From contig NC_092240.1 in NCBI RefSeq assembly GCF_036320965.1, forward strand, positions 6,984,001 to 7,048,000: 64,000 nucleotides of DNA, written 5' to 3'. Positions within the stretch are counted from its first letter, which is position 1, and each line of letters opens with the position of its first letter. Positions 11,201 to 51,335 of the stretch are shown piece after piece. Both the position numbers and the translations under genes were made by a program. The notes below the pieces were generated by a model. That model ran no database searches and was not told the origin of the DNA. It was given only the letters and a program-made list of their open reading frames with translations. This DNA is from Panulirus ornatus. Its lineage: Eukaryota; Arthropoda; Malacostraca; Decapoda; Palinuridae.

Positions 11201-14200
11201 CATTCTCTTCATGTGACCAAACCATTTCAAAACACCCTCTTAGCTTCTCAACCACGCTCTTTTTATTACCAAACATCTCTCTTACCCTTTCATTACTTAC
11301 TCACACCACATATTGTCCTCAAACATGTCATTTCCAACACATCCACCCTCCTCTGTACAACTCCATCTATAGCCCATGCCTCGCTACCATATAACATTGT
11401 TGGAACCACTATTCCTTCAAACATACCTATTTTTGCTTTCTGAGATAATGTTCTTGCCTTCAACACATTCTCCAACACTCCCAAAACTTTCGCCCCCTCT
11501 CCCACCCTGTGACTCACTTCCGCTTCCGTGGTTCCATCTGCTGCCAAATCCAATCCTAGATATCTAAAACACTTCACTTCCTCCAGTTTTTCTCCATTCA
11601 ACCATACCTCCCAGTTGACTTGTCCCTCAACCCTACTGTACCTAATAACCTTGCTCTTATTCTCATTTACTCTCAGCTTTCTTCTTTCTCACACTTTACC
11701 AAACTCAGTCACCAGCTTCTGCAGTTTCTCACCCGAATCAGCTACCAGCGCTGTATCATCAGTGAACAACAACTGACTCACTTCCCAAGCTCTCTCATCC
11801 ACAGCAGACTGCATACTTGCCCCTCTCTCCAAAACTCTTGCATTCACCTCCCTAACAACCCCATCCATAAACAAATTAAACTACCATGGAGACATCACGC
11901 ACCCCTGCTGCAAACCGACATTCACTGAGAACCAGTCACTTTTTTTTTCATACTATCCGCCATCTCCTGCTTTAGCGAGGTAGCGTTAAGAACAGAGGAC
12001 TGAGCCTTTGAGGGAAACCCTCATTTGTCCCCCTTCTCTGTTCCTTCTTGTGGAAAATAAAAACGAGAGGGGAGGATTTCCAGCCCCCTCTCCCTCCCTT
12101 TAGTCGCCTTCTACGACACGCAGGGAATACACAGGAAGTATTCTTTCTACCCTATCCCTAGGGATAATATATATGAGTCATAGGGTAGGGGAGGGGGTGA
12201 GGGTTCTCAGAGCAATGAAGAATGTGTAGAAGGTGAGAACATTATCTCGGAGAGCAAAAATAGGTTTGTCTGAAGGAGCAGTAGTTACAGCGAGGCTATA
12301 TGGTTGCGAGGCATGGGCTATATATAGGGTTGTACGGAGGATGGTAAATGTGTTGGAAATGAAATGTTTTTGGACAAAATGTGGTATGAGGTGGTTTGAT
12401 TAAGTAATGAAAGGGAGAGAGAGATGTGTGGTAATAAAAAGAGTGTGGTTAAGAGAGCAGAAGGTGTCTTGAAATAGTTTGGGCATATGGAGAGAATGAG
12501 TAAGGAAAGATTGACAAAGAGGATATATGTGTCAGAGGTGGAGGGAACAAGGAGAAGCGGGAGACCAAATTGGAGGTGGAAGGATGGAGTGAAAAAGATT
12601 TTAAGTGATCGTGGCCTGAACATACAGAAGGGTGAGAGATGTGCAAGAAATAGAGTGATTTGGAATGATGTGGTATACAGGGGTTGACTTTCTGTCAATG
12701 AACAGAACCAGAGCATGTGAAATGTCACTGAGGTAGCGGCAGGAAGCAGAGGAAGAATGGCCCATCCACTCATATATACATATATATACATAAATGCCCA
12801 TACATGCACATATTCATATCAACATGTACACGTATACGTATATATACATATACACAGACATATACATGTATACCCTTGTACATATTCATACTTGCTTGCC
12901 TTCATCCATTCCTGGTGCTCCCCTGCCCCGCAGGAAACAGCATCTCTATCCCCTGCTTCAATGAGGTAGCACCATTAAAACAAGTATTTTTATATCTTGA
13001 TGTTTTTCATGTATTTTTTAATGAGAGATTGTACTCATCATCCAGTCATTTATGTTATTATATATTCAATATTCTAATGCTTCCATAGACACACTTCCTG
13101 CTGTATGGTAAGGGATTCCAGACGTGGGAATATGCACCTCAGTATGCACTGCGCTCCTACACTTACATCCTCATCCATGCAGTTCCTGGCTGGATATATT
13201 CCAGTCTGTTGCAGTCTAACCGCATGCTGGTATTCTTCTTTATACGATGCATGTTGGCCTTAGGATGTTCAGGCTGTGAACTTTACTTTTACAGGTAAAT
13301 TTTATGTTTTGTGAGGTGACTATTTATAAAGTGTATTTTGGAATTGACATAATAGTTCATAAACATCACACAGTATTTGGGGCACTTGAATGAGCAAGTT
13401 TATCTTTCAGGAATGTAATAGTTGCATAATCTATTTCATAAGAGCTCATGGCTTTTGTAGCTCTGTTGTTAGGATTAGTAGATACTTGATCATTAGTTTG
13501 CAATTGGATTGTAGGTTTACAATTTCAGAATCATTGATTTAAGACTGGAAATAATGTTTGTGGACTTTATAAATGGATTTGTCAAGTTTAAGAAATAGAC
13601 ATTGAATATTATAGAGGCCTTTCAGTGAGCTTGCTGCCAGCTCAAACAGAGAGAGTCAGGAATAATTTCTCTCAGGTTCCTGACTGAAGATTTAAGGGGA
13701 TTGATATGAAGGTTCTTAGCATCAGTTTGTAGATGCATTATCTATTTGTAGATGACCTTTTTTCCAGATTGTGATTTGTGTGACTGGTCTTATAACCATA
13801 TTGTACCTTCTGCAGATGGCCTTATTTCCACATGATTACTACAGATACTGTAGAGTGCTTAATGGTGTGTGTTTGATTGCATGTATGTAGAATCTTCTTT
13901 AACTGATGGGTTCCACCCATCTTCTCATGTTTAAGTGTTGAAGACTCCGTAGCAGTGCTCAGAACAGCTGTTGAAAATAGAAACCTTAGTCTTTTCACAT
14001 GTTCATACATTTGTGTCTATCTTGCAATTAAACTGATGTATATTATACTAAGAAGCATATGCTAGTTTTGAAGTATGTATTCTTAAAGTGAAAATGATTT
14101 TGTCTTGATTGTTTTATTTTTCATGACTTAAGAAAAATGAGAATCATCAGAGGTTATTACATACACCATTACCAATCTTCTATCGGTTTATCATTGTATT

Positions 14201-17200
14201 GTTGCACTGCAGCAATTTATTCTAGTTATATTCTTTATTTTCTCAGAGGCATATGCAGGGAGTTTGGAGCAAATGTTGGCAGGCTGACCCTGAGCATTTT
14301 GGTATTTGCTGCTGGCATGTTTATATCATCCACAGCCTACCTTCCCTCCAGTTTTGCTATGTAAGTTTTTACTATTCTTATGAAGTTTCCCAGGCTCTTA
14401 TCTTATTTGTTTATATCCTGAGTTCCATTTTCCACGATAAAGCAGTGTCCTGTTGAATCCTGAGTTGGTTTGTAGAGTACTGTGATCTTTTTCAGCATCC
14501 TCAGCATGCTGGTTTGAATCCCACCGTAATTTATCATAATTCAGTAACATTTTGAAGTACTGAACAGCTTAATTCTCCAAGTGAATGATCTAGGAAGAAC
14601 ATCCCAAAATTGTTCATTGAAAAACATGCAGACATTAGAATCTGGGAATAGAAGATTTCATGATCACAGTACTGGAAGAAACTTGCAGGATTTAATGGAA
14701 AATTCCTGGTATGGAATGTTATTGGATGGATGGGTTGTAGCTGAATTGTATATCTTTAATTAGAAATATGGACAATGAAAATATGAAGAATTTACAACAC
14801 TAAAGTAGGTTTTGAGCTCATCAAGAGCTGTACTTTCCTGCAGAGAGGCCAATGAGCAAAAGAAATGAGAGCCCCACATTTTTATGAATAGCAGGTCACA
14901 TCCCTAAAATGATTTAAGAATATTCCTAACAACTTTCCATCTTTCATGTGAGCCACCTATCCACAGCCAAGCCCTACAAACTTTTCCATGGTTTCCCTTG
15001 GCCATTTCACATGCTGTTGGTCAGCCCATCAACAGCTCATTTAATATACTGTATTGCTTTAGTTCAGTCTATCCTGTGCATGCCACACACCTTCCTGCAT
15101 GTTCAGGTCCTAGTAACTTGAAAGCATCTTTCACTCCATTCTTCTATTTCATTCTTGGTCTCCCCGTGTTTCCTCCACTTCTGATGTACATATCCTCTTA
15201 ATCAGCCTCTCCTTTCTGATCCTTTCCATATTTCCAAACCATTACAGCACATCCTCTACAGCTCTTTCAACCACACTCCTCTTACTATCACACATCTCTC
15301 ATACCCAATGATTTTGTACTTGACTAACCTTCCTTGCACCACATATTGCCTTTAAGCTTTTCATTTCCTACACATCCATCCATTAATGTGCATTTATATT
15401 TAGGACCCATGCCTTGCATCCTTACGTCATCCATAAATATGCCCATCCCTGCCCTCAAAGACACAAATCTGTCCCTCCACACACCCATCAACCTACTGTT
15501 TCATTCTTTAGGTATATGACATTGATGTCTATGGGAGCATGGTATCATCAGTCCTATGAGCTTGCCATCTTTACAACTGCAATATCAGCCTTCCTTGGGT
15601 GGCCGTTTGCTGCAGCTATAGGGTAAGTCTCTCATTATCATAATTAGTAATTTCACCTTTTTTAAAAATTACTTTTCAGTTCTCATGGAGTGCATAGATT
15701 TCAGGCGATGTTGTCGTATGAATGAAGCCTCTCAAACTTTTAGGTGTTTTAAGCAGTGTTCTTGAAATCCCAACTGCTGAGCTTTTTTTTTATTATTATT
15801 ATAATGGCGAGTAGTTGGCTAAAATGCCATAAAAAGATTGAGCATGCACCCTTTTGTTTTGAATGCAGAAAAAGTTGACATTATGTGATGGTTACTATTT
15901 ACTTTTGATGGATGGGTTATGAAGAGACTGAAATGAGAATGAGTGACTGAGTTGGGTATCATTGTCAGCAATGAAAGCAGTAACAGTATTTTATATAAGT
16001 GTTCTGAATGTTTTGCTTTTAGCTTTTTAACCTTTTTCATTACCTGATTCATCTATGCCATATATTATTTCATATGATGTATAAGGTAACTTATTCAGGT
16101 CCTCTGTTCAACTATGAAGATCTCATTTCCTCTATCATAGCACTACTCTCAAATACTTAATACCTTACTCTGTTGAAATTTTCACTCACTTTGATTAAGT
16201 GAACTCTCTAATCACTCTCTTTGATATTCTTCTTAAGTCTAAATCCCCTTTGTGCTTCTCTGATTTTATTAATGACTTCATTTTGTTTAATAGAACTCAA
16301 ACTTTCTCATTACTCATTTAGTCTCTTATGAGCATTGCATCCACTTTCTGAAAAATTCATCTCATCTGCCTTCAATTTTTTCTTGCTGTCATCATCCATC
16401 ATTCTTTCATTTCATGAGCATAGATTAGAAATATAGGTGTTGCTCCCTTATGTAAACTTCACTGTACCTAGTTGCTGTCAGTTATTTTCCATGGATAACT
16501 AGCATTTTCTGTTCAGTAGAGAAATTTAGATGTTTCTGCTTTAATTCCACAATCCTTGCTGAATGTTTTACTTTTGTGTGAGAATCTCTTAGTTCACTGA
16601 GCCATATCCCATATTTGATCCCCTCATTAGTTGTCATCCACAACACTTCCCTAACACTCCTCTACTATTATAGGGATAACCCCGAGGACTGTTAGTGAAA
16701 GAGAAAAGAGAGGCATTTGTAGGGAAATCGTGCAAATGACTGGGAGATATATAAAAGAAAGAAGCAGGAGGTCAAGAGAAAGGTGCAAGAGGTGAAAAAG
16801 AGGGCAGATGAGAGTTGGGGTGAGAGAGTATCGTTAAATTTTAGGGAGAATAAAAAGATGTTTCCTTGCGCTACCTCGCAAACACGGGAGACAGCGACAA
16901 AGCAAAATATATAAATATAATATATATAAAAAAGATGTTTTGGAAGGAGGTAAATAAAGTGCGTGAGACAAGACAACAAATGGGAACATCGGTTTGTTCT
17001 TATGAAAGGTGTTTACTTGAACCGAGCTACACTGTTGTGTATCTCTTGACCAACATTTTGTCTGCCATACATTTATGTGACCATGCAATTCTGAAAGAAT
17101 TTCCTTTGGGTGTCTTTTAAGTGGTTTGTTTATTCTTCATATTCTTCCCATATCTTTATTTTCAATGTCTTTGTACCGTAGATTCCACCTATATTGTACA

Positions 17201-20200
17201 AGGTATCCATCTTTAGTACTGTTATGTTTTTATCTGTCATGATGTATATGACATATACACTTGGATTTCACACCAGTACATAAGTGTTAGGGCAAGTATC
17301 CCTTCATGCAGCTTCTCGTATAATCTTCACTTAGATTTTTCTCATTCACCATGATTATCAGTACACCTCCAATTTTTCTCCCTTGCATGATTCTTCTTTC
17401 AGCTAAAGATGTTTCACTACACTTTACTCGCAAATACTAAAGTTCATCCACAGCTTCCATTTTTCACCATGCAAACTTGTCTCACACCCTGATCTATCTT
17501 ATTTAGTGCTAAATGTGTATATATTTACAGGATTCCAGTCGCCTATGATATTGTATTTCGGAAGAAGCAAGTTTTCATGTTCATCAAGTGGTGCATCATC
17601 TCTGCCGTAACAATTTTGGTATGTATGATTTACTGTGTTTATATATGAATGTATTTTATACCTAGTTGCCTCTCCCACCTTACAAAGTTAGTGTGAGGAA
17701 TAAGCAAACACTACCCCATGGATCCCATGGCCCCCAGTTATACACTGAATTGTCACCATTGCATTTATGTGTATTCTGTATATATTCATGTAACTAGTAT
17801 AATTGATTTTAAGCATTTATCTTGTTTCAGATACCCATGATACAAATAGATTCCCAGTACTTTGGTCGTCTTGTAGTTGCTCCTTTCAATATCGTAATGT
17901 ACAATGTCTTCACTTCACATGGCCCAGACATTTATGGCACAGAACCATGGTCTTTCTATATCTTCAATGGCTTCCTCAACTTCAATATTATATTTCTGGC
18001 AGCTATAGCTTCACTTCCAGTATATGTAAGTAGATAACTGGATTAGAGATTTTTCATTTTGTAACAAAATTATGTTCAGTTATTTAGGAATATTCTTTTA
18101 CCATCAGTACACCCTCAAATGTCTCAGATCAAGCCAGTTTGCCAGATTATGGGTATTTATATTGCTAGGGGGACCTGGTAGAGGATCTGATGGATTGTAA
18201 ATTTACCTGTGGAGTTTTATTTTCCTAATGTTTAAGTTTATATGAGTTTTAAATGTTACAACTTAATTTACTCTCCAAAAATTCTGTCAAGAATGTGAAC
18301 TCTCAGATATCTGTGAGTGACTGAGATGTAGAATATTTTTTCCAGCTGTGGCAGTTGGTTGCTTGTAACCTCTAAGTAGAAAAATTATCAGCTGGGATTT
18401 TAGATAGTGGTGGGAGCCACATCACAGATCATGTGATGGGTGGAGCAATAGCTGCATAACTCAAGTCATGATATGTGGAGCATTGAAAGGGACAACTCCT
18501 ATATTTACCCTTAACTTGCTAAATTGCATAAGTGGCTGCAGACACTCTATCCACTTTTGGCTCAAGTTTAAGATACAACAGAAAGTGATTCATAGAAGAA
18601 CTTCGTCTTATGTATTGTAACTTTATGATTAACTAGAGATGATGACTATGGTCATAATCAGTACAGAACTTGTGGAAGAAAGGTTGTTTCTCCATTTTGG
18701 CAGTCTGAGTCTGCTTCAAAAATCATTCATCACATGTTGTATCCATATATTGTCAAAAATATGTGCAGAGTTTTAGAATACTAGAATTTAGGAAATAATG
18801 GCACAACTCGCCAATTCAACGTCAGTGAACTTACCACAAGGATGATGAATCATCAGAGAATGAACTTATCATGCAATTAGGATCTGTTGTTTACCACTGC
18901 CATCTGTTGAAAGAGCTTGCTGTTGATTTAGGGTATCACTGTCAATCAGTTTCTTCCTCTCAGAAGACAAGTTATGTAGAAGGAGTGCATGTTTTTCTGA
19001 TAGCAATGAGTATTGACAAATACTTTAGTTCTTTCTTCACTAGAGAATGACAGTTGCTGTCGTTTTAAATGTTATTTTAAATGTATGCAAATGTTGAGCC
19101 CATTCACTACATTCACTATATTTCCATTTCCATTTTCTGTGTCCACCATCCCAGTTGTGGTCTTGCTTTGTGCATCAATACCAGTTATTCCTCTATTTGT
19201 AACAAAATTTTAATTTTGCAAAGACTTTCACTAAGGTTTATCTTTTTTTCATGTTTAGGGCATCATGTTGTATGTGGTGCAGCTGCCAAAGAAGAGTAGT
19301 GTTTATCTTCCCTTTTGGTTGAGCTTATCCCCCATGTATCTATGGCTGACCATCTTCATAATACAGCCACATAAGGAAGAGCGCTTTCTCTTCCCAGTGT
19401 ACCCTCTGATATGCCTTGCTGGAGCCATCAATATTGGTAAGACAAAATCATTATTTTGGGACATTTACAACTGCTGGATCAGATGGATAATAATGCCTGA
19501 ATGAAATTTTGAATGAAATAGAAAAGAATATGATTGTCATTAACGCTATGTCATTAACTCTGATTATAATCCCATGGGGTGGATGAGGTACATACTTTCT
19601 CTCACATTATTTACACTCATCCTCATCCCATGTCCAGTATGTTGAATTGAAATATGAACTTGTACACTTACATGAGTCCCTCTTGCATTTTCACTTGCAA
19701 ACATATTTGTTTTGTCAAATGATGCCAGGATGACCATCCACATCACCTTTATACAGTTAATGCTTCCAGTGCCAATGTTCCTATGTCATTTGTCTGGCAG
19801 TCTTATCTGAAATATTCCTGGCTGTTATTGTATTTGAGCAAAATGCTGCTTTCAGCTTCATTCCAACTACCATCCCAATGAAATTTAGCTTCCAAATAAA
19901 CAGACATGACTTACAGTTTCTCACCATTCAAGCTGATATTACGAAGTGATATCCCACCTTTTTCAAATCCTTAAGTTTACCTGGCATTTACTGAAGCTTG
20001 CTTCTGCATACTTCATCAGAGTAGCATGTCATGTTATAGTATCATCAGCATGGTACAGCTTTGGTAACTTTATTGTGTTTCATCATGATTTAGTGTATAC
20101 TATCTGTCTATCTATATCTCTGATGCCTGTTCCCTTCAGGAACTCTTTCAAGAGGTTAGCCATGCAAAAGATTCTCCATAACTGGTGAATTCCTGTGCTG

Positions 20201-23200
20201 CTTAGCCTTTTGTGCACCACCCTTAACAGGCCACGAGCTGAGGGCAACTCTAGTGCATTGTTTTCAGAGGCAGTACCTAATGTTCTTGTTTGATGTTCCA
20301 ACTTAATACTTTACATTATACTACATTATAGTAGTATACAGGCATCACTTTACTAATTTCAAATGTAAATAATGACTCATTCTTAAAAAACAATAGACTA
20401 CCATGGTGATGTCATACAACTTTGATGGCACAGAACATACGAACTACCACAAGAGGCTGAGATCTTGAACTCTTCAATCGAGAAAGAATGGGAGAGAAAC
20501 ATGATATATGCCTGGCATAAAATAGTAGGCATAAAGAGTTATATTTTTAATTTGAAAGTATCTCATCAAAGAAGATGCAAGATTATTTCCTGGAACATGT
20601 TAAAAAGATTTTTTTGTTTTTTTTTTGTTTTGTCGCTGTCTCCCGCGTTTGCAAGGTAGAAAAAAAAAAAATAAAAATAAAAAGATATCACACAAAAATG
20701 TAGAAGCACCCAACAGAAAAGTTTGACTAATCATGTAGTGTAGTACGAGGAGAAATAAGAAACGTGCACAAAGTGACAACAGAAACATTTAATCCTACGA
20801 AGGTATTTGACCTCATATGAGGCTTTCTTGTTTGGAGCAAATGACCTCATACGAAAACTAATTCTTGAATTGGCCACCTCTGCCTAGAGTTGAAATATAC
20901 TGCCATCAGTACTTGTCATGTTGTCTCACACACTAGACATTTTCTATCCACTGGTCAGTATATGTGGAGATGTGAGGGATGCCTGTACAAGATCGGCACC
21001 CTCATCTGTTAAAATCTTTGTTGATGTTTCACTTTTACAAGATAGTAGATATTACGAGTGAAAACCATTAGCAATAATCTTTGAGTCATAATCTCTAAAG
21101 ATACCCCATAACTTACTGGGTGTGCCTGAAAATACTCATGGCATACCTCATTCACTTGGCAACACTGAAAAATAAAAGAGAGCACTGCACTCATAATCAG
21201 TATCTCTTCAGATTAAGTTGTGTATCATTTTACTTAGAAAATTAAGATCTTAATCATAAGAACAAACTTAAGATGTATTCTTTAGTATTTTGAACTCTGC
21301 CTACACTGTACACAGAAAATTATTACTGTTGCCTAACTCATAGCAGAAGTAAATTCATGATGAAATTCAAATTGATAACTACTCAAAAGGAGTAGCAGCA
21401 GAGAAAAGTCAACAGGCAGGACATATGGTAAGCTGTACTTCCTAGGCCTGCCATTGTGACAAAATCCCCTAACAGAGCCCCTTTTATTTCATACCACCAC
21501 TTAGGGTCACACATGTATTAATTCCTTTATAAAAACTCCTAAAAGCATTTGGAAGTCTTCAAAAGTTCTCTGCACAACCATATTGTCGGAACTTCCTAGA
21601 TAGCTTTTCTCTTCACTTTATCACGCCTTTTCTAAGTGCATAGATAGCAAGTAGACTTTTCCAACACCTATATGTGCAGGAATTTGCATGCTCTTCCTTT
21701 CATAAACCTTCCTTGATCTCCATCTACAAGGGACTCATCCTTTTAAAATGATCAGTCATTTTCCTACCAATACCCTACCAATGTGCTAATGAGAGATATT
21801 CCTCTGTAATTCTTATCACCACTTTTACTCTACATCCATTCCTTTTTTCTTACTTCTAATCTGTAGTACTGGAAGCTTATACTCTCATTTTACTCTGCAC
21901 ACCTTTTTTCCTACTATCTTTTATCATTAGCATCTGCCAAGATTTATTTAATACAATCTGACTCTTCGCTCTTCTACATATGTACTCCCAAGATAGTTTA
22001 TTATTTTCCTTATTTATGCACTCATTCTATTCTGAAAACCTAATTTGCTTTCATTTTATTCATGTTCACTATCATATTCTGTTCTCTGTTTTTCATTTTA
22101 TCCATGATTATAGTGAAAATTCACTCTTCCACATCACCCTAGTGTCCATGCATGCATGTCTAAACCCAAACCAGCAGCACCCTTCATCTCAAAGAAGACA
22201 AACATACTCACATAGCCACAAACAAAACACATCCTAAACATACATGAAAAACTAACACAAAATCAACCCCCCCTCAAAAAAATTGCTCATTTGCCCTTCT
22301 TTCCCTCTGACACTCTAGTATGATTTAAACCTTGAGAACTCCCCTTCAACAAGCCCTGACAACATATCAAACTCCCACATATAATGCTTTGGCCCATTAG
22401 CAATCTAAGGTCTTTCAGATGTTTTTCAACCATTCCTGGTTGCACAGCAAATTCCCAAAGATCTGGAAACCTGCCAATGTAGTTCCCATCCTGAAACCCT
22501 CCAAACCTTCCAGCTCATATTGCCATATATTAGTGCCATCACCAGTATCCAAATTTGCCTCCAAAACTGATCCACAACAGAGCCAACCAAAATTTCACAC
22601 TCACCCACACACCACAGCTCTAGTAGACTCAGCCACTCAAAACATTCTGGACACTACTAGTACAAGAAAAAAACATGTAACATGACCTTGTGCACATAGA
22701 ACACCATCTTAATAAAAACAGAAGAATGTATGAATCCTCATAAAAATCCAATGTCGCCCTCTTCACCCTTGTTAGACATGAATCCAACCTGCACTCTCTC
22801 ATAGACCTGAGTGATGAACCACTCACAATCAACAAAGCATTCACTTCCCATGCTACAAATATCAACACCACTGTCATAAGCAAACAGACCACCCTTAGAA
22901 TATTTCTGGCACCAGTTTTGGTTGACAAAAAATCCTTTTGCATAATTTACGAACAGTTCATCCTTTCATTATTAGACAATGCCTCACTTGCCTCATCATC
23001 CACTCTGTCATAAGTAAATATAGCAGCTGAATACCACACAAAACATAACTCTCATACTAGTCACGAGCTGCCTTGCAGCCACAAACAACCATTCCCTACA
23101 CGCAATACAAATCCAGTATAATTTCACAATGTTATGCTTGGCACATAGTTTTTCATAAAAGAAGTAGACTGATGAACCCAAAAAGTTCAGAATCACTCAA

Positions 23201-26200
23201 CTCAAAAGAAGAAGAAAAATGCATACCCGTGCTTCATTCTTCTGCACCTTTACTTACATATCCTCCCCCTCCCCCCAACAAATATGACACAGGCAAAAGT
23301 ATACACACCATAATGTCTTGACAGGAACTAAACATCCTCCATTCCAACCCAATCTTAGTCATCTCTAACATGCATGCACCCATCAGAACTACATTTCCAT
23401 GGTGTGTATGGGTTACACTTTCTTTGTGTTCTGTACACCAACCATCTCTCAAACATTCCAAACAGCAGTTTGGCACATTACAAGACCCATCATTCCCAAA
23501 ATGCAACTTTCATAAAGAAGACACTGAACACTTAACTCCTTATCTGTCTTGCATTCACCCCATTAAGACATACACACGTCATTGCACCTCTTGACCTGTG
23601 ATCCCTCCTAGTGGGCGTAGCTGGCTACCTGAATGCTGCAGGAGCCCCATACAAGGAGACCCTGGGGCAGGAAGGTAAGGTAAGGTTTGCTGCATTTTTT
23701 ACCCTTTTTCATCGCTATACACCGGTATATTCAGTTTTTTCAGTCTCTGTTTTTCTCCTTAACTAATGTACTTAAATCATTTTAATTCTTTACTTTTCTT
23801 TCTGCATCCTGTACTTACTACATTGTACAACTCTATATCAACCTCTGATGATACTCTCTTAAACTGCTTCCACATTACCTCAACATTGTACTGCTTCAGA
23901 TTTTCACAACTTTTTTTATGTTTAGTTTTACGATCTTATTTCTTTATTTTTCTACTTCTATCCATTTCACTCTTTAATTCTTATCTTTAGCCTATTTCCC
24001 TTTACAGTAAAAGGTTCACATATATCTCGCTGCTTTTGAATTGCCAAATTTCCTCACCCCTCTCTTGGACCAAACATCACATACATTATGTATCTAATTC
24101 TTTATCATATACAGACTAAGCCCTGTGAGTATCTTAGAGTAGTGGGCTATAACACTGTTTGCTTGAAAAAAGAGAATAAGGTGTATCCATGAGAATTGAT
24201 CATCTTTGACAACCATTTATTAGATAAGGGTGGTAGATGCAAGTTCACAGGAACTCAACCCTCTCAGACTTGCAATATAATGGCATGGAGGTTAGGTGAT
24301 GTGAGGCAGCCTGCAACATCCATTCATGTTCCTTATCTAATGTAATGTGCTCCAGGTGTCTAACTTTGTAGAGTTTGTGGTTTGTTAAATTTTTTCACTG
24401 ACCCTCAGTGATGTTGAATCAGAATCTTCATTATTTTAGTTTTGGTTCCTAAGGCATGGTCATGAGTACTTTTGTATTCCTTGAGGAATATTATGTCTGA
24501 AAATATATATATGTATACACATGTGTATGTGGATAGGTTGGGCCATTCTTTCGTCTATTTTCTTGTGCTACCTCGCTAAACGCAGTATAATAGAAAAAAT
24601 AATAAAATATTACCGTTACTATCATTTGGTATGGTCAGTCCTACTAATACTATGTATATGCTTTATGTGTTTTTGCATTATATTATTTTCTTGTTTTATC
24701 ATTGTAGTGGTTTATGGTATTTTTGAATAGTACTTTTATGAGTATTTAGTGGAGGTATTTTTAATGGACCTGGGTTTTGATAATTGTATATGCACTGAGG
24801 GACAGTACTGAACTGTTTTGTAATAGGTCGAAACGCAAATTCAAATGATTGACGGATTTATTTCCCACCGGGAGAGTCCTCCAGGCAGCTCTCACTTTTA
24901 ATTGTTTTGATTCCATTTCTTGTGTTATCGATCTCAGTCATATGTTGAATTCAGCTATTAATCTTGTGTTATTAGTGGGACAATGGAGGCAGACTCCAAG
25001 GTCTAAGGTCTCACACCTAAGCTAGATATCAAGTTGGAGGGTGTTTCTGTACAAAGGAGAACCCTGCAATACCTTATGGAAATGTTCCTGTATTAAACCA
25101 CAACAAGGCTTTGATTAAAATACAGCATACCCTTATAGTTTTTGATATCCTGCTGAAATTTTAGTAAGTTAGGAATGTGTTGGCAAGGTGGAGGTGGAAA
25201 GATGGAGTGAAAAAGATTTTGAGTGATCGGGGCCTGAACATGCAGGAGGATGAGAGGCGTGCAAGGAATAGAGTGAATTGGAATGATGTGGTATACCGGG
25301 GTCGACGTGCTGTCAATGGATTGAACCAGGGCATGTGAAGCGTCTGGGGTAAACCATGGAAAGTTGTGTGGGGCCTGGATGTGGAAAGGGAGCTGTGGTT
25401 TCGGTGCATTATTACATGACAGCTAGAGACTGAGTGTGAACGAATGGGGCCTTTCGTGTCTTTTCCTAACGCTACCTCGCACACATGAGGGGGAGGGGGT
25501 TGTTATTCCATGTGTGGCAAGGTGGCAATGGGAACAAATAAAGGCAGACAGTATGAATTATGTACATGTGTATATATGTATATGTCTGTGTGTGTATATA
25601 TATATGTGTGTACATTGAGATGTATAGGTATGTATATTTGCGTGTGTGGACGTGTACGTATATACATGTGTATGTGGGCGGGTTGGGCCATTCTTTCGTC
25701 TGTTTCCTTGCGCTACCTCGCTAACGCGGGAGACAGCGACAAAGCAAAATGAATAAAATGAATAAGGAATGTGTTGGCAAGAGATAAGATGAACCCTGAG
25801 ACTTAAGGTTTCATGCCATGACAAGTGTACTAATGGTACATTAGTGTAACTGCATTGGAAGGTTTGTTCTTGTGGGTGTTCATGCAGTACCTCATAGGAT
25901 TCTTTCTTCATGAAATGTGATTAAATTGTGGATTGCCTTCATTGCACAGAACCCTGAACGTTACAGATCCACCATAATGCACTAGGAAAACAGATTCAGA
26001 AGATGTCCACCTGAAGGATATCTTTTTTTTTTGAAGATATCTTTCCAAACTTTCATGATAAAGTACTGTTCCCTTTAGGAACAGCATTTCATCTTTGGTT
26101 GTTTATGGTACAGAACTATAGTCCATGAGCCTCAAAGCTCCTGTTGATCTGAAAATGGAATTTCAATTTTTGTTCTAACTTTAACTTTTTTATAATTACT

Positions 26201-32200: not shown

Positions 32201-35200
32201 AGAAGAAATTTGGTCATCTCAAGCATACCAGATTTCATTACTTATTTTATATTTTTATTTTCCTGGCCACACAGAAAATTTCTGCAAAAATGAGGGTTAT
32301 AGACCCCCTGGTCTAGAAGGATATCTTTTTAGCTTTTACCACAACCTCTCAGGACTAACTAGAATTATCTTCTTGTGTCTTTCAAGCTCTAATTAGTGTA
32401 GATAATAAATTTTTGGAGGAAATTGATTTTTCCTAGCAATAGGAGGAGCCTGAAGTTCACAAACACATTGTCTACTCACCTAGTACTTCTAGTTGTTAGA
32501 TGTATCTCTTTGCAAATCATGCTGAACATGGTTGTCAGTTAGTGTGAGAGAGAAAATGTTTGAGAGACTTTGTTTGGGGTGAGGGTGCAAGGGGAGGTAG
32601 ATGTTACGTGTAGGCAATTTTCTTTTTGAAGGTCTGTGATTGGTTGACCCACTGAGAAAAGCCAGGGAAGTTTGGATATAGTCTTTTTACTAGCTTGACC
32701 ACATTTTATTGTCTTTCTCCCTTGCCTGGCAGAACTATCCCCTTAACCCTTCTGTGAGAGTGCAGACAATAGTATCCAAACAAATTGATTTGCTGTGTCC
32801 GTAGTGACAATGGGACCCATATATTGTTGTAGCATGCCCTTTTTTGCTACACTAACAGTCAGAGAAAGATATTTTAATTTTAACTACATTTATGTCTATC
32901 TTTTCCCTCTTTTTACTTTTTATTTTTTCAACATCCTCATCCTTTCATGTTTCTTTAGTTTACATTAACATTGTGAATACAACTGATAGCCCTCATTTTT
33001 TGGCTTTTTTTCTTTTAAGTAATTGTTGATTACATCATATGTAAACTTGATTTAGAGTGTACTATTTAGCATTAAACTTTGATAAGATGATGAGGTTATT
33101 GGTAGCTACCATGCTTATGAAAGATTTTGTATGCACTCTCTGGCCTTCAATATGGGAAAAAACAAAAGGTAATGAAAAAAGTTTTGGAAAGAAAAGAAAT
33201 AGGAATTGGAGAAGTTTATATTTGCAGGACAATGCAAAATTTAAGAATTTGTGGCAGATTGCATGATGTCAGGTGTTTGAATATTAATGTAGAAAACATC
33301 ATAAAGAGAAAGAATATTTAAAGGAGACCTTAATTATTTTGATTGTAATAGTGTATTCCTCCAAGGTAGCATCTGGAACAAATCAACAGCCTAAATTGCC
33401 TAAGTTGTTAGAAGCAGTGAAAAGTTTTTATCGAGGATGTAAGGCATGTGTACGTGTAGGAAGAGAGGAAAGTGATTGGTTCTCAGTGAATGTAGGTTTG
33501 CGGCAGGGGTGTGTGATGTCTCCATGGTTGTTTAATTTGTTTATGGATGGGGTTGTTAGGGAGGTAAATGCAAGAGTTTTGGAAAGAGGGGCAAGTATGA
33601 AGTCTGTTGGGGATGAGATAGCTTGGGAAGTGAGTCAGTTGTTGTTCGCTGATGATACAGCGCTGGTGGCTGATTCATGTGAGAAACTGCAGAAGCTGGT
33701 GACTGAGTTTGGTAAAGTGTGTGGAAGAAGAAAGTTAAGAGTAAATGTGAATAAGAGCAAGGTTATTAGGTACAGTAGGGTTGAGGGTCAAGTCAATTGG
33801 GAGGTGAGTTTGAACGGAGAAAAACTGGAGGAAGTGAAGTGTTTTAGATATCTGGGAGTGGATCTGTCAGCGGATGGAACCATGGAAGCGGAAGTGGATC
33901 ATAGGTTGGGGGAGGGGGCGAAAATTCTGGGGGCCTTGAAGAATGTGTGGAAGTCGAGAACATTATCTCGGAAAGCAAAAATGGGTATGTTTGAAGGAAT
34001 AGTGGTTCCAACAATGTTGTATGGTTGCGAGGCGTGGGCTATGGATAGAGTTGTGCGCAGGAGGATGGATGTGCTGGAAATGAGATGTTTGAGGACAATG
34101 TGTGGTGTGAGGTGGTTTGATCGAGTGAGTAACGTAAGGGTAAGAGAGATGTGTGGAAATAAAAAGAGCGTGGTTGAGAGAGCAGAAGAGGGTGTTTTGA
34201 AGTGGTTTGGGCACATGGAGAGGATGAGTGAGGAAAGATTGACCAAGAGGATATATGTGTCGGAGGTGGAGGGAGCAAGGAGAAGAGGGAGACCAAATTG
34301 GAGGTGGAAAGATGGAGTGAAAAAGATTTTGTGTGATCGGGGCCTGAACATGCAGGAGGGTGAAAGGAGGGCAAGGAATAGAGTGAATTGGAGCGATGTG
34401 GTATACCGGGGTTGACGTGCTGTCAGTGGATTGAATCAAGGCATGTGAAGCGTCTAGGATAAACCATGGAAAGCTGTGTAGGTATGTATATTTGCGTGTG
34501 TGGACGTATGTATATACATGTGTATGGGGGGGTTGGGCCATTTCTTTCGTCTGTTTCCTTGCGCTACCTCGCAAACGCGGGAGACAGCGCCAAAGTATAA
34601 AAAAAAAAAAAAAAAAAATTGCCTACATCCACTCTCTGGCTTTCATAGACAATGTACTGAAACCAGAGCATACCAGTCAAAGCCAAGCCTCAAAGACTGT
34701 TTCATGATTAATCATGACCACATTTTACACGCTGGTTTAGCCCATTTACATTGATCGTATTAATTCTATTCCATGCAACTTACACACTTGTCACCCCCTG
34801 GATGTTTAGACCCCAGAACCCCAAAGCATCCCTCATTTCATCCTTACATATCAGTCTCTCCTTCCTTTTCTAATGCATAGATCATCTTAGGTTCTTCTGT
34901 AATCCTTTCCTTTTGTCTGAATCAGTGGTCAGCACACCCTGGTCACCTCTCTCTCTGACTATGCTTGCAGTCACATTTCTCTCCTACACTGTCTTTCCTT
35001 ACACAAGAACCAGCTTTATACCTCATTTCATTTTCAGACATTTCATCCCAAACACATCTTTTATTTTATTTTGGCAAGATATATAATTCTGTATGAATAG
35101 CTTAAAAGTATTTAGATACCTTTCTCTTGCTAAAAATTCACTGAGTTCTAGCACTTTCCAAATTTCTCAACATCAATCAATCTTTCTTTTGTTTTGAAGG

Positions 35201-38121
35201 CCCAAGACACATCTATAAACACTGTTGAACCATTATGCCTTTAAACATGTTCCTCTTTTCCCTAACATACTCTGACTTCACCCTTGCTCTTGAATGCATC
35301 CAGGAGCTTAGTCCACTCTCCCAGGCTATGACTTGCCTCATCCTTTTTGGTTCCATCAGCTATCCTAGGTACCTAAATAGGTCAGCTTCTTCCAGCTGCT
35401 CCCCTTTCAAACTTATACATAAACCATCCTGTCCCATCCCACCATGCACCTCATTACTGTACTTTTTTTCATGTTTACTCTCAACTTTCTCTTATTGCAC
35501 AGACTCATAAACTCTGTCACCAGAGTTTCTTCTTGGAGTCTGCCACCAGATGCATGCCATTTACAAAAAGCAACTTTTTCACCTTACATCCCCCATTCAC
35601 CACCAATGTACCATAGATCTACTTTTTGTTGTAAGACATTTGCATTCACCTCCTTTACCAATTCATTCTCAAATAGATCAAACAACCACTGTAAACATCA
35701 CATATCCTTGACACAACCCTGTCTTCACTAGGAGCCACTCACCTCCTTCATTCTTACTGAATTTTTGTTTGTAGGTATAGAGCTACACTAAAAGTAATAT
35801 TTTATTTACAGTTGGAATCTCCAGTTCATTGAAAGTGAATTTAGAGGTCAGTTACCGAAGCCATATTCTCAAGAAGCTAATGGAACCACTATTATACCTG
35901 AACATATGAATGATGCAAATATTGAAGAGAAGTCTAGATATGTGAGTACGGAGGAGTCAAGAGTATATTCTGTTATTTCATATATTTCTGCCTGTCTCTA
36001 ATACAGAAACCTCTGCAAAGACTGTGGTAGAGTTGCACTCTGCTAATGGCCTGTTAAGGGTGAGGCATTGAAGGCTAAGAAGTAGCACTGGAATTCACTA
36101 ATTATGGAATCTTTGTTTCCATGGCCACCCCCTTCAGAAAGTTCCATTTGGGGACAGACATTGGAAATATAGATGGATAGATAGATAGGAACAGAGAAGG
36201 GAGCCAAGTGAGGATATTCCCTGAAAGGCTCAGTCTTCTGTTCTTAACGCTACCTCGCCAACGCGGGAAATGGCGAATAGTATAAAAAAAAAAAAAAAAG
36301 ATAGTCTTTAATGTATATTTCACATATGCAGTGTTTTTGAGAATTGATAAACTAAAACTCATTGCCTTAAGGGCATGATTTTCATCATATGTCAACACGG
36401 TAGGGTCATTTATCTAATATTTCCATATAGCAGGCAAAACTTAAAGGCAGACATGTCTAATCTGCCTAAGAGATGAGTATTTTAAACACCCTTCTTATGA
36501 AGTCATACTGCCAAAGAATAGTAGTTGCCATCGAAATCAAGTGATCCTAATATGCTTAATAAGTGATCTTTGTAGCTTGATGATGATTGACTTGAACACA
36601 CTAATTCAAATACTAATATCATGGCACACTGATATATTAACCTTTTAGGTGATAGGAATCTTTCATGTCACTAAAATTCAGCTGACTATCTGAATAGATG
36701 TAATTATTTCCAGGGTTCACATGCCATGGAGATGAATAAGTACATTTTCTGATAAAGTATAATGTAATTGTTTTTATTATTGTTGTTGATAATAAAGTTA
36801 ATATTTGTTGTGTTCCTCATACAAATGCAGGAAAAACAGTTAGGTATGAAATAGATTAACTATTTTAAGTCTTTTCAACTCTCTTCTCTTTGTAGATACT
36901 GCTTCTTTCACCTTAGTGTGGTTGCATTAGGAAGGAAAGACAGCAGCCTGGTTTGAACACATCGACTCTCCTTGTTGTCACATATAATGTCCTGAAACCA
37001 GAGCTTACCACCCATACCTAAGCCCTTCAGACTGTTCCATGGTTTACCCGACTTCTTGTGCCCTGGTTTTGCCTATGTACAGCATGTTGCCTTCAGTATA
37101 TCACATCAGACAGATTCATTTTAACCAATATACACATTTCACCATCCTAAATATTCAGGCCTCAGGACGATAGAATTTTCTTTAATCTGTGTCCTTTTAT
37201 CTTCTTCCTAGTCTTCTTCTCCCACTTTCTCCCTCCTGTGACACATAGATCCTGTAAGTCAGTTTTTTTTTACTCATCATCATCTTTATGCATCCAAACT
37301 GTTTCATTACACTCTGGTCATCTCTTTCATTCAAAATACTTGCATGAATGGCATCCTTGGGTATTTCATTCTCAACACATTCACCCGCATTCTCTCTTTT
37401 GAATTTGTTTCCCAAGACTCGCATCATACAATACCATTGGGATTACTATACATTCAAACACACCCTCCTCTCCAAAAGGACACTGACTTCTATTTTACAC
37501 ATGCTTCTCAACACTTTTGAACATGGAAGCTCAAGCTTAATCCATAGGCTTCCCCTGGGCATCTTGTGCTGACAACCTCGTTGACTCAGCTGGACATCAT
37601 TTCTTCTCACTTTCTCCGGGTTTTGTTAATATTACTGGTTTTGTTAATATTACAATACTCTTTGGTTAATTAGTTAGGTAAGACATTTCTGAAGATAACT
37701 GTAAAAAAATCAGTGTAAAGTAGATAAATTTACCATATATTCTAAGGAGTGCAAGATAATGAAAAGTAAGTACGTTGGTTGAACAAAGTTTATGTAATGA
37801 GTTACTGGAGTGTACCACCTAAGCCTAGCTTTCCTCACATTTGACAGTATCTTTAAAGTCACAGTTCCCATGTAGTTTCTTCTTCCCAGAGGATCAACTG
37901 CCTTTGAGCTGGATGTTTTTATCTCTTTTAGCAAGGTTTTCATGAAGTTATAGCTGTAAAAACTCACAATTTATCATGGAATTGGGATAGAGCGTAATGA
38001 AATATGTTTTTTGCTGCTTCAAATAATCCTTGTGACCGTTGTTTCAACATCAAAATGTCTGAATTTCCTTACATATTGAATTTTTTTTGGTGAACAAATT
38101 TTGATATGCTGAAAATTATTC

Positions 38122-38191
<70 letters not shown>

Positions 38192-41100
38192 AATGGGATG
38201 TATTTAGGGAATCAGTGATGGATTGCGCAAAAGATGCTTGTGGCATGAGAAGAGTGGGAGGTGGGCTGTTTAGAAAGGGTAGTGAGTGGTGGGATGAAGA
38301 AGTAAGAGTATTAGTGAAAGAGAAGAGAGAGGCATTTGGACGATTTTTGCAGGGAAAAAATGCAATTGAGTGGGAGAAGTATAAAAGAAAGAGACAGGAG
38401 GTCAAGAGAAAGGTGCAAGAGGTGAAAAAAAGGGCAAATGAGAGTTGGGGTGAGAGACTATCAGTAAATTTTAGGGAGAATAAAAAGTTGTTCTGGAAGG
38501 AGGTAAATAGGGTGCGTAAGACAAGGGAGCAAATGGGAACTTCAGTGAAGGGCGTAAATGGGGAGGTGATAACAAGTAGTGGTGATGTGAGGAGATGGAA
38601 TGAGTATTTTGAAGGTTTGTTGAATGTGTCTGATGACAGAGTGGTAGATATAGGGTGTTTTGGTCGAGGTGGTGTGCAAAGTGAGAGGGTTAGGGAAAAT
38701 GATTTGGTAAACAGAGAAGAGGTAGTAAAAGCTTTGCGGAAGATGAAAGCCGGCAAGGCAGCAGGTTTGGATGGTATTGCAGTGGAATTTATTAAAAAAG
38801 GGGGTGACTGTATTGTTGACTGGTTGGTAAGGTTATTTAATGTATGTATGACTCATGGTGAGGTGCCTGAGGATTGGCGGAATGCGTGCATAGTGCCATT
38901 GTACAAAGGCAAAGGGGATAAGAGTGAGTGCTCAAATTACAGAGGTATAAGTTTGTTGAGTATTCCTGGTAAATTATATGGGAGGGTATTGATTGAGAGG
39001 GTGAAGGCATGTACAGAGCATCAGATTGGGGAAGAGCAGTGCGGTTTCAGAAGTGGTAGAGGATGTGTGGATCAGGTGTTTGCTTTGAAGAATGTATGTG
39101 AGAAATACTTAGAAAAGCAAATGGATTTGTATGTAGCATTTATGGATCTGGAGAAGGCATATGATAGAGTTGATAGAGATGCTCTGTGGAAGGTATTAAG
39201 AATATATGGTGTGGGAGGCAAGTTGTTAGAAGCAGTGAAAAGTTTTTATCGAGGATGTAAGGCATGTGTACGTGTAGGAAGAGAGGAAAGTGATTGGTTC
39301 TCAGTGAATGTAGGTTTGCGGCAGGGGTGTGTGATGTCTCCATGGTTGTTTAATTTGTTTATGGATGGGGTTGTTAGGGAGGTAAATGCAAGAGTCCTGG
39401 AAAGAGGGGCAAGTATGAAGTCTGTTGGGGATGAAAGAGCTTGGGAAGTGAGTCAGTTGTTCGCTGATGATACAGCGCTGGTGGCTGATTCATGTGAGAA
39501 ACTGCAGAAGCTGGTGACTGAGTTTGGTAAAGTGTGTGGAAGAAGAAAGTTAAGAGTAAATGTGAATAAGAGCAAGGTTATTAGGTACAGTAGGGTTGAG
39601 GGTCAAGTCAATTGGGAGGTGAGTTTGAATGGAGAAAAACTGGAGGAAGTGAAGTGTTTTAGATATCTGGGAGTGGATCTGTCAGCGGATGGAACCATGG
39701 AAGCGGAAGTGGATCATAGGGTGGGGGAGGGGGCGAAAATTTTGGGAGCCTTGAAAAATGTGTGGAAGTCGAGAACATTATCTCGGAAAGCAAAAATGGG
39801 TATGTTTGAAGGAATAGTGGTTCCAACAATGTTGTATGGTTGCGAGGCGTGGGCTATGGATAGAGTTGTGCGCAGGAGGATGGATGTGCTGGAAATGAGA
39901 TGTTTGAGGACAATGTGTGGTGTGAGGTGGTTTGATCGAGTAAGTAACGTAAGGGTAAGAGAGATGTGTGGAAATAAAAAGAGCGTGGTTGAGAGAGCAG
40001 AAGAGGGTGTTTTGAAATGGTTTGGGCACATGGAGAGAATGAGTGAGGAAAGATTGACCAAGAGGATATATGTGTCGGAGGTGGAGGGAACGAGGAGAAG
40101 AGGGAGACCAAATTGGAGGTGGAAAGATGGAGTGAAAAAGATTTTGTGTGATCGGGGCCTGAACATGCAGGAGGGTGAAAGGAGGGCAAGGAATAGAGTG
40201 AATTGGAGCGATGTGGTATACAGGGGTTGACGTGCTGTCAGTGGATTGAATCAAGGCATGTGAAGCGTCTGGGGTAAACCATGGAAAGCTGTGTAGGTAT
40301 GTATATTTGCGTGTGTGGACGTGTGTATGTACATGTGTATGGGGGGGGGGTTGGGCCATTTCTTTCGTCTGTTTCCTTGCGCTACCTCGCAAACGCGGGA
40401 GACAGCGACAAAGTATAAAAAAAAAAAAAAAAAAAAAAATTATTATTATCACTCTTCCCTGCCAGCAAGTTAGTGCAAAGAAACAGATGAAAGAATGGCC
40501 CAACCCACCCACATACACATGTATATACTTAAATGCCCACACATGCACATATACATACCTATACATGTCAATGTATACTTACATATACATGCACAGGCAT
40601 ATACATATATACACATGTACATATTCATACATGCTGCCTTCATCCATTCTCGTCGCCACCCCACCACACATGAAATGGCACCCCCTTCCCCCGCATGCGT
40701 GCGAGGTAGCACTAGGAAAAGACAATAAAGGCCACGTTCGTTCACACTCAGTCTCTATCTGTCATGTAATGCACCAAAACCACAGCTCCCTTTCCACATC
40801 TAGGCCCTATAAAACCATTAATATTTTAATCAAAGATCAATATTTTTCCTATTTCCTTCTTTTCACAAGGGAATGATAAACACTTTTAATTTTATTCATA
40901 TTTTTTCATTTTGTTTACTAATTCATTATCATATAAACTGGGAAATGTCTGCTCCACTTTTTGTTTTACAGTATATCAAACTAGTCTACAAGTTGCCAAC
41001 AGAGTTTTTCAATCTAATTCCCCCAGTGTTTTCTGTTACTTGATTGTAACAAGTCCTGGAGAGTTTTTTTAGTGAGAAATATAGCTCATATGTAGCAGAT

Positions 41101-49000: not shown

Positions 49001-51335
49001 TTTTGGAAGTTGCCATTAGTTCCTGAAACACTTAAAGGGGTAGAAATGGTTAGCAGATGAAAGTGTGCAATTAACTGTTATGATAAGTATATTTCTTAGA
49101 GAGACAAATGGAAATCAGTTGTGCATTGGTGTTGAGTCTTATACTAAATTGAGTTTACTTGTGCCATCATCATGTATGTTGTAACTGATACATGATATAG
49201 ATGGAAAGGTCATTTAATGAGGACTGCACAATGTTAAAAAAGGTTGTGTAGTTGCATATGGTTGAGTTAGTACATCCAAAATTGTATAGTTATTTTGAAT
49301 GTATTGGTAGTGGTGTGATTGTAGGTGTTTTGTACTATTTTTTTATAATTATTCTTTTTAATGATCAAGTAAATGGTCATTAAATTCTCTCTAAATTTTG
49401 AGTAAAGGGTTAATTGATGGTGAATATTAAATCTTATGAATAACCTTCTGGTGAGAAGCATTTTTTTACTTTGTCATCATTTTGGGAGAATTGTAAGTAT
49501 AAGGTGATTGGGTTTCTGTTGTTGGATGATAATTTACCATGTAAATTGGTGTTTCTTTTAAAATGAATAGATAGGTTTTTTGTTTAGAATGAATTTTGAG
49601 TCTTGTAAATAGCCTTTTAGAAGGAATTATTTATGTGGTTTTTCACATGATTTGTAAGAAAAAAAAATTGTTTTATTATTAGAAACAACTAATGTATCTT
49701 TTGCTCTAAAGCTGAATACTGGTTTTAATTGTAAAGTGGTCTTTGCTTAGTCAACCCTAGCACCATGGTTACAGTTATTTTGTCATACCATTTTACTAGC
49801 TCTCCTTTCACACTGATATACGTAAAGCATTAGCCATTGTGGTTAGCCGAATGGGAAAATTAGCTCTGTGGTAATTTGTTTAGCCAAATGAATAAATTAG
49901 TTTTGGTAAATAAACAGTTTTTGTGTGCATACATCCAACTTTTTAGAGATAAAAAATACAGTAAGTGGTAACATTGCCCTTAAACACACATTGAAAGATG
50001 GTTAAATGGTAAGAGGATAAATAGGACTGAAATTTTCAAATGTGGGTAATTTATCATGAAGTTGAAATTGAGATTCAAAACAGAATTGACAGCTGACTGC
50101 TCAAGCTCAGAGGAAAGGGATAGTAAAACTGGGGACTTATCTTTTACTTAAGATATGTTGAAAGACGTGGTACAAATGCCTCTGGTATTTGGAAAAGAAG
50201 TATGGAACAGCTTCAACAGAGGTAATGAAGTTCAAGCATTAGAGATGATTCTGGGGGAATTGAATAAGGAGGAAGAGTGCACAAGGACTAATGAGAATGT
50301 AGGAGATGTAGTTCAGTGAAAGTTTTAAATAAGGTGAGGAGTGATGTACTGATTAAAGTTTATGGGAGAACAACTGACGTGAGTATAGATGAATGAGGTG
50401 GGAGACATGCTGGTTTGGAGTGTAAATTAATGAAAGAGGATACTGGAGAGAACGTGTGTGATTTGCACATTTTTGTAATTTTTGTGTGAGTGAGGGAGAT
50501 AGCATTGACCATCTTACTGGAAGCAGGATATAATAGTCTAAGACAAACATATAATCAGTTTGTTGTACTCAATTAATTGAAAGACCTTCAAACCTTTTAT
50601 CCTGTTATGTACATTTTGTAAAGTAATGTATGCCTAGAGATATTGTATACAGCCATGTAATCAAAAAGAACTTAAACATTATCCTAACTCTGTCTTGTAC
50701 ATATGTAAATTTATGTATGTTTAAAAAAAGTTTTTTGTGATACATAATTTATTCATAGCCAGTTAAGTAGATTGTTATCTGTAGTTATATATGAAATTGT
50801 TATTAAAATGAAATGGATAAAAGGAAAAGGATGTTTTAATACTATTCCAAAATTAGACTTACATTTTCTGTACATGAGAACACAAGGAAAATGAAGAAAT
50901 TTTAGAAAACCATAAGAAAACATTGGGTCCTAGAAGCACTGAATTGTAGCACTATTTCTTTCTGATCAAGAAATACTGTCCAGATCCATCATTAGTGATC
51001 AAAGTGGGATGAAAAGTAACATTTTATTTTTTTTACACCTTTTACTCTGCCTTAGCAAGATTACAGATATATAGCAATGAGTTGCCTTATCACACCTTCA
51101 TAAGTTAAAATCCAGAAACTGTGCCTTTAGGGGAAGAAGTCTTTTATGGCACTTATTCCTACTTTCAGAAAAATATGATACAGGAGAGAAGGATTTTCGG
51201 CCCCATTAGTTACATTACCTTTTTTGACATGTAGATGTGGGTAGTGATGTGTGCAAACAAGGTTATTTTTCATCTGTTCCTATTGATACCTTGTGAAGTC
51301 AGGATAGGCAATAGGTCTAACAAAATAATTTTGAT
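46051..51335. other. Intergenic AT-rich stretch, nothing recognised
   Basis: No exon pair, RNA gene or clear repeat could be supported on either strand. Part of the ALG9 3' UTR could extend into the sequence before this stretch. Confidence 0.4.

Follow-up and report, generated by a model that had tools for sequence, protein, structure and literature searches.

A LINE and a LINE-derived SINE with a common 3' tail and (TA)n association in the spiny lobster Panulirus ornatus

LINE and SINE copies in the window

We analyzed a stretch of 64,000 nucleotides from the spiny lobster Panulirus ornatus (RefSeq assembly GCF_036320965.1, contig NC_092240.1, positions 6,984,001 to 7,048,000 of the forward strand), referred to as the window in the following. 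It carries copies of a long interspersed nuclear element (LINE) and of a short interspersed nuclear element (SINE), both ending in the same 3' tail. An initial annotation had described this tail as shared by a LINE and two unrelated non-autonomous repeats. What the window contains is a single SINE and a single LINE lineage divided into subfamilies. The relevant features are listed below (ORF, open reading frame; RT, reverse transcriptase; UTR, untranslated region).

3115..3752, plus strand: 3' part of a subfamily B LINE; inner tail at ~3454, terminal tail 3689–3752
10583..11942, minus strand: 3' part of a subfamily B LINE; ORF end, minisatellite-bearing 3' UTR and tail 10576–10635, with the 5' end at the poly-A of the SINE
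11940..12175, minus strand: SINE, complete at the 5' end (model positions 2–242); body resembling the LINE 5' UTR, then the shared 3' tail and poly-A
16859..16912, plus strand: tail-only LINE insertion (~50 nt) within an older LINE ORF fragment (16692–16993)
25189..25749, plus strand: 3' part of a subfamily B LINE; ORF end, degenerate inner tail at ~25459, minisatellite-like stretch, terminal tail 25692–25749
33404..34606, plus strand: young, 5'-truncated LINE of subfamily A (97.6%); tail 34543–34606
36010..36184, plus strand: unrelated repeat holding the truncated SINE; five other copies, all tail-free
36187..36293, plus strand: 5'-truncated SINE copy (model positions 139–242), the tail part of the element originally placed at 36041–36298
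38124..38189, no strand: (TTA)22 array abutting the 5' end of the LINE at 38192–40424; TTATTATTAT is also found after the poly-A of that LINE
38192..40424, plus strand: young, 5'-truncated LINE of subfamily A (98.7% to that at L025); RT frame 38194–40230 (RVT_1, 8.1e-37), tail 40361–40424
43070..43129, plus strand: tail assigned to LINE type C, an older one (...GGGAAAAGGCGATCAAGTAT); remnants like it at 30299(+), 31209(+), 42195(-) and 59826(+)

Loci outside the window carry L numbers. L009–L028 form a blind sample of 200 kb, taken at one fixed position on each of C1–C20; six of these loci hold N runs, 10,986 N in total. A near full-length LINE was found in this sample at L025:2030–5300(-). 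Its open frame of 998 codons encodes an endonuclease domain (Exo_endo_phos, 9.6e-8) and an RT domain (RVT_1, 1.3e-36) and is followed by a 3' UTR of ~190 nt (the frame ends at 2222, the element at ~2030). The LINE thus has the layout of the RTE type, i.e. a single ORF with an APE-type endonuclease and RT, and a short 3' UTR. It may belong to the RTE clade, a name given here from architecture and resemblance rather than from an RT tree. The protein closest to the window ORF (89% identity over 81%) comes from an ENA contig. Comparison of the blind sample with a LINE-A copy yielded 48 alignment chains, four of which are actually SINE heads. Of the 48, 18 extend into the terminal 20 nt of the reference; the others are internal pieces, cuts at locus edges or older subfamilies. 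The alignments, down to 68% identity and including the four SINE heads, cover 46,065 of the 200,000 blind bases.

Among the window copies, the LINE at 33404–34606 shows AATTGCCTA both ahead of its 5' end (33394–33402) and past its poly-A (34617–34625), like a target-site duplication. The tail-only insertion at 16859–16912 is framed by a 12-bp direct repeat, AAAAAGATGTTT, at 16852–16863 and 16929–16940, as expected when copying begins at the tail. We had considered 16692–16993 as an internally deleted LINE and rejected this, since it is an older LINE fragment into which the tail-only copy was inserted. Another LINE remnant limited to the tail (42 nt, CTACCTTGCAAACGCGGGAGACAGCGACAAAAC...), with a T run before it, lies at 20618–20659(-).

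A separate, minisatellite-bearing partner, as originally proposed, is not supported. The minisatellite-like stretches at ~3550–3680, 10650–10790 and 25535–25670 lie within the 3' UTR of LINE subfamily B and are continuous with the ORF, which is seen to run on into them at 10583–11942(-) and 25189–25749(+). This UTR also includes a degenerate earlier tail (TCTTTTCCTAGCGCTACCTCGC...) that the subfamily A LINEs with tails at 34562 and 40380 lack; subfamily B therefore looks to have gained a second tail.

The second of the supposed non-autonomous repeats could likewise be reassigned. The segment 36187–36293(+) is 88% identical to the SINE at 11940–12175(-) and is flanked by GATAG on both sides (36184–36188 and 36300–36304). 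It is thus a truncated copy of the same SINE, inserted in a repeat that is unrelated to it. Further copies of this repeat are found in the window at 20100–20270(-), 26874–26969 and 41563–41630 as well as at L016:5134–5230 and L019:3533–3653(-). None of these five has a tail match within 400 bp downstream, and together with 36010–36184 they form a dispersed repeat without the tail. The reading as two unrelated elements is rejected on these findings. The complete SINE is flanked by ...ATGACTCATATATAT on the 5' side and GTGACTGG on the 3' side, and its direct repeat is weak (TGACT, 5 bp).

The common 3' tail and the two ends of the SINE

The 3' tail common to LINE and SINE, as stated in the initial annotation, is real. 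The 18-mer CGCTACCTCGCYAACGCG, with up to three mismatches, matched nine times in the window and not once in 100 dinucleotide shuffles. Its exact form occurs 57,436 times in the genome of 2.65 Gb (28,670 forward and 28,766 reverse), whereas the reversed control gave no match. The LINE tails at 3708(+), 25711(+), 34562(+) and 40380(+) end in CGCTACCTCGC(T/A)AACGCGGGAGACAGCG(A/C)CAAAG, and altered forms of this ending are present at 10599(-) and 16869(+). Tails of the SINE type lie at 11968–11985(-) and 36248–36265(+), and another old tail at 59841(+). The ending AACGCTACCTCGCCAACGCG/GGAAATGGCGAATAGTATA, which had been quoted for both short copies, is correct for the one at 36248 only; the copy at 11940 reads CGCTACCTCGCTAAAGCAGGAGATGGCGGATAGTATG. 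The 3' ends of SINE and LINE are homologous beyond chance in many copies, as in other LINE/SINE pairs with a shared tail. Scans of viral and prokaryotic contig collections with the tail pattern gave no matches. At L041 the LINE 3' tail is repeated three times in tandem (754, 997 and 1192; spacing 195–243 bp).

Homology to the LINE is not restricted to the tail. With a SINE profile of 243 positions built from eight copies, 23 LINE 5' ends were matched at E ≤ 1e-4, each stopping at positions 185–193, and 18 LINE tails, each starting at positions 184–189. The LINE 5' ends thus end where the LINE tails begin, and the SINE is covered in full by these two parts of the LINE. No match at this threshold was obtained for L030 and L033, whose LINE heads are truncated, or for the majority of the remaining LINE tails. 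Local alignments of the SINE body with four LINE 5' UTRs scored 62, 89, 97 and 108, whereas 500 single-letter shuffles of each did not exceed 28. They stop ~125 nt into the element; a multiple alignment extends the likeness to the tail. SINE-like heads stand immediately ahead of the endonuclease region at L011, L025 and L026, and an exact LINE 5'-UTR motif occurs 9,555 times genome-wide (4,718 + 4,837; control 0). The bodies upstream of the tail had been called unrelated. This holds with respect to the LINE 3' UTR, but not for the element as a whole, since the SINE body matches the LINE 5' UTR.

The majority readings of SINE and LINE begin with the identical 5' terminus TATCCCTGGGGATAGGGG. For the LINE, the 5'-UTR motif yielded 20 loci, and 20 5' ends (L029–L047) were collected as the first on C1; L048 was excluded as it overlaps L047, and L031 and L037, apparent copies of one duplicated locus, were counted separately. 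The full 5' end is reached by 10 of the 20 heads and reads TATCCCTGGGGATAGGGGAGAAAGAATACTTCCCACGC, which equals the SINE start save for single bases.

Judged from its sequence, the SINE is a two-ended derivative of the LINE and not a tRNA-headed SINE. Neither a tRNA gene nor an Rfam family reaching its gathering score was found in the window, the SINE included, and a low-threshold Rfam scan of L004, L029 and L044 listed 74 matches, none at gathering score; a head derived from a small RNA (tRNA, 5S or 7SL) was therefore dismissed. Nin-DC or another conserved SINE domain, considered in view of the conserved head, was set aside without sequence comparison, the head being explained by the LINE 5' UTR. 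By eye, we noticed tRNA-like sequences with GTTCGAATCC or GTTCGATCCC at L030 and L033, within ~260 bp before position 1500. One is fused to a LINE near the ORF start and the other lies beside a TA tract; they perhaps represent a separate, tRNA-headed SINE.

The SINE would descend from an earlier member of the same LINE lineage. At one site, the diverged LINE at L014 shares the SINE reading GTATTCCCTGCGTGTCG, where most LINE heads have GCATTCCTCACGTGTCG, and the SINE tail resembles that of LINE type C more than those of A and B.

Insertion sites at (TA)n microsatellites

Many of the elements are found at (TA)n arrays. A tail was counted as lying by (TA)n if at least six TA units occur within -15 to +45 of its end. 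In the blind sample, where tails were taken from nhmmer matches above 20 bits with a model end of at least 55 (n = 25), this applies to 15 of 25 tails, compared to 2.2% of random 60-mers and 1.9% of 60-mers located 300–2000 bp away (p = 4e-20). One tail filed as SINE in the tail typing, L027:7010, is in fact another old tail. Two further sets of loci, L001–L008 and L049–L068, were drawn by exact match to the tail close to an end of C1 and represent young copies from one region. The count was 13 of 15 tails in L001–L008 (without L005, which overlaps L004) and 20 of 21 in 20 further loci picked by tail match alone (SINE 12/12, LINE 8/9).

The association is also seen at the 5' side. Upstream of the LINE 5' ends, (TA)n was present in 12 of 20 cases against a background of 1.8%. 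A wider classification of LINE 5' ends placed 17 under TA, 36 under "other", 11 inside another element, 10 at an edge, 8 under head-to-head, 4 at N and 1 under tail-to-head; many of the cases under "other" result from a reference without the first ~45 nt, and the count of 12 in 20 was used instead. Full-length SINEs have (TA)n upstream in 17 of 20 and downstream in 17 of 20 cases, and truncated SINEs with enough flank in 3 of 8 and 7 of 11, respectively (the SINE flank windows reach 8 bases into the element). In the blind sample, all three full-length SINEs (L016, L025, L026) have TA on both sides. Among the three truncated ones that keep the tail (L011, L016, L017), TA was found upstream of none and downstream of one (L017). 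With TA on both sides, targeting is favored over a repeat produced at the 3' end.

Proposed retrotransposition system and related elements

Based on these results, we consider it probable that LINE and SINE form one retrotransposition system, composed of a LINE of ~3.3 kb and a SINE of ~240 nt that is an internally deleted derivative of the LINE lineage. The LINE comprises a 5' UTR of ~190 nt, one ORF for the APE-type endonuclease and RT, a short 3' UTR and a tail capable of forming a hairpin, and the SINE retains the first ~187 nt and the last ~58 nt of the LINE. In the proposed cycle, the SINE RNA would be transcribed from the sequence it has in common with the LINE 5' end, and the LINE protein would accept the SINE 3' tail as a template. 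The endonuclease would nick AT-rich microsatellites, mainly (TA)n, where either RNA would be copied by target-primed reverse transcription. Both strands of a (TA)n array contain TA steps, and its free 3' end can pair with a UAUAA-like RNA end, which would explain the preference for these sites. Directly seen in the sequences are the homology at both ends, the sharing of the tail across the genome, the location of both elements at (TA)n, ends in poly-A, truncated 5' ends and a number of direct repeats. The initial proposal of a SINE that carries the 3' recognition sequence of the LINE and uses its RT is well supported by the shared tail, the LINE 5' terminus in the SINE and the common (TA)n sites; the SINE is very probably mobilized in trans by the LINE machinery.

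A number of observations weigh against this reading. None of the 14 window tails lies by (TA)n, the young window LINEs sit at AATTGCCTA repeats and (TTA)n, and among the LINE alignment starts of the blind sample (at least 150 nt, old copies and breaks included) only 7 of 38 have TA upstream. With 15 of 25 blind tails and 0 of 14 window tails at such arrays, the LINE does not behave as a site-specific element with a strict single target; (TA)n is therefore a strong preference and not a rule. As one young window LINE is flanked by AATTGCCTA and another by (TTA)n, insertion seems to occur at AT-rich sites at large. A tree of the heads separates all 21 SINE heads from 19 LINE heads by one split with a low support of 0.31. 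A weak SINE-profile match at 51105–51204(-) of the window (19.6 bits, model positions 92–199), which may be an old SINE, crosses the border of the two LINE-derived parts (185–189). The evidence for an RNA structure is weak as well. The tail can be folded as a CUCGC-NAAC-GCGGG hairpin with an outer CGCU/RGCG stem, in which 93.2% of the cells pair and seven cells show two-sided changes, a number reached in 10 of 500 shuffles. By two of five measures the hairpin does not stand out from the shuffles (255 and 249 of 500), the arms are rich in CpG, whose decay could mimic two-sided changes, and an alternative helix, CUGUUUCC/GGGAGACAG, attains 89.3% pairing with no more covariation than in shuffles. 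In the fold prediction, which is equivocal, one typed LINE tail folds better than shuffles (z = -2.62), the window segment 40344–40418 does not (z = -0.30), and two SINE tails lie at z = -1.07 and -1.16. Taken together, there is weak support for the hairpin and none for the alternative helix, and a conserved 3' stem-loop, as in tails of the "stringent" type, is a candidate feature.

Finally, in the tail alignment the SINE tails differ from the LINE-A/B tails at fixed sites and are closer to the older LINE type C. The present subfamilies A and B may thus not be the original or best partner of the SINE. It is possible, albeit tentative, that a type C LINE (tail ...GGGAAACGGCGATCAAGTATGAAA) serves the SINE instead of the abundant A and B, all of them having inherited the TA association. 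A missing T and a GGGAAA segment are indeed common to the SINE and C tails, where A and B mostly have GGGAGA. Yet the few sampled C copies look old and no young one was recognized. In addition, the LINE-A copy at L034:2857–2914 bears a SINE-type extreme 3' end (GGGAAATAGCGAATAG), and the two kinds of tail thus seem to be exchanged between LINE and SINE.

A bolder reading, which we regard as unlikely in its entirety, is that an APE-endonuclease LINE of RTE architecture targets (TA)n together with its two-ended SINE, and that both ends of one break prime two RNAs (LINE or SINE), which are copied toward each other in a single event and joined head to head. Here the targeting of (TA)n is well supported, while two-sided priming is a hypothesis: as (TA)n reads alike on both strands, both 3' ends of a break could prime. 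Head-to-head LINE junctions without TA between them were found by script at L009 (~7688), L025:1494 and L026:873 and by eye at L032 (~1341) and L045 (~1690). Both outward tails are visible only at L009 and L025; at L026 one of the two is partial. Such junctions could result from two-sided priming at a palindromic target or from sequential insertion; a sixth one, L016:1075, resembles ordinary twin priming. A different arrangement, a LINE tail followed directly by the 5' head of another LINE in the same orientation, occurs at L011:5200–5260 and at ~1260–1780 of L031 and L037.

Instead of being targeted, the (TA)n tracts might be made by the elements, either through 3'-end slippage during reverse transcription or through later growth of a short, TA-rich target-site duplication; we find this quite unlikely. 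Lepidopteran RTE elements, whose copies adjoin simple repeats like those of the lobster, are reported to generate 3' microsatellites with no sequence specificity of insertion (PMC2887409), and many lobster LINE tails end TATAATA-like ahead of the array. In contrast to the lepidopteran repeat at the 3' end, however, the lobster repeat is present on both sides, and 3' slippage cannot account for the (TA)n at the 5' side of LINEs, full-length SINEs and truncated SINEs. Moreover, single TA tracts with oppositely oriented elements at both ends occur at L009:8297–8366, L025:1964–2017 and L017:4116. The data are compatible with a short TA duplication that grew on either side of the element.

It is improbable that the direction was reversed, i.e. 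that an ancestral LINE took up a SINE-like 5' piece as its UTR, even though the shared ends as such give no direction and SINE and LINE heads group apart. Diverged LINEs already bear the head before LINE sequence (L014, 75% to LINE A; L026:9577, 85%) and internally deleted LINEs exist (L008, 1807 joined to 2396; L032, ~1089 then 3091); deletion is therefore the simpler step. Chance or low complexity as the origin of the tail likeness can be dismissed in view of the shuffles and the reversed control, with nothing found in its favor.

A system of LINE and internally deleted SINE, as we propose it for the lobster, has several known counterparts. UnaL2/UnaSINE, to which the window had been compared, belongs to a different LINE clade and is reported to have been shown in cell assays. 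The analogy is valid for a SINE with a LINE 3' tail but not for the head, which is LINE-derived in the lobster and tRNA-derived in UnaSINE. In ingi/RIME of trypanosomes, both ends of the long element make up the short one, in a different clade and host. The Sauria SINE has its own, tRNA-derived head, unlike the lobster SINE with its head from the LINE. In Bov-B and the Sauria SINE, an RTE-clade LINE and a SINE have a common 3' end and insertion signature, as in the lobster, and TA is recognized near the nick. Bov-B copies are described as rarely flanked by a target resembling the 3' repeat, whereas many of the young lobster copies are embedded in (TA)n. At the cut site of RTE-clade LINEs, a short T run followed by a TA dinucleotide has been reported (PMC13295347).

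According to Ohshima 2013 (PMC3747384), tail sharing by LINE and SINE is common in the CR1 and RTE clades, so the pattern as such is not new. The same review gives MAR4, RTESINE1, RTE1-N1 and Bov-A2 as RTE-derived, non-autonomous elements with the LINE 5' end and the LINE tail. The lobster SINE corresponds to these in that its 5' part stems from the LINE 5' end and its 3' part from the tail, with no small-RNA head, and it is placed with the elements listed there under the promoter "5'-end of RTE". It differs from these mammalian elements in its host, a spiny lobster, and in the strong (TA)n association. The words "crustacea" and "shrimp" are absent from the main text of that article, and no description of the lobster LINE/SINE pair was found in the literature searched, with most subscription journals outside reach. 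Within the reach of these searches, what appears to be new is a LINE/SINE pair from a decapod, its SINE of entirely LINE-derived sequence, and a preference of both elements for (TA)n.

The published annotation of P. ornatus assigns 0.01% of the genome (353,960 bp) to SINEs (PMC11193758). In our blind sample the SINE family alone occupies 1,406 of 200,000 bases (8 matches, assigned to the SINE by a profile-position rule), or ~0.7%; the family was therefore missed or filed as LINE in that annotation. Simple repeats have been linked to RTE-BovB expansion in penaeids (PMC7878876), and the lobster pair is relevant to this link. With a wholly LINE-derived SINE and a common site preference in a decapod, trans-mobilization and endonuclease targeting become testable on one system.

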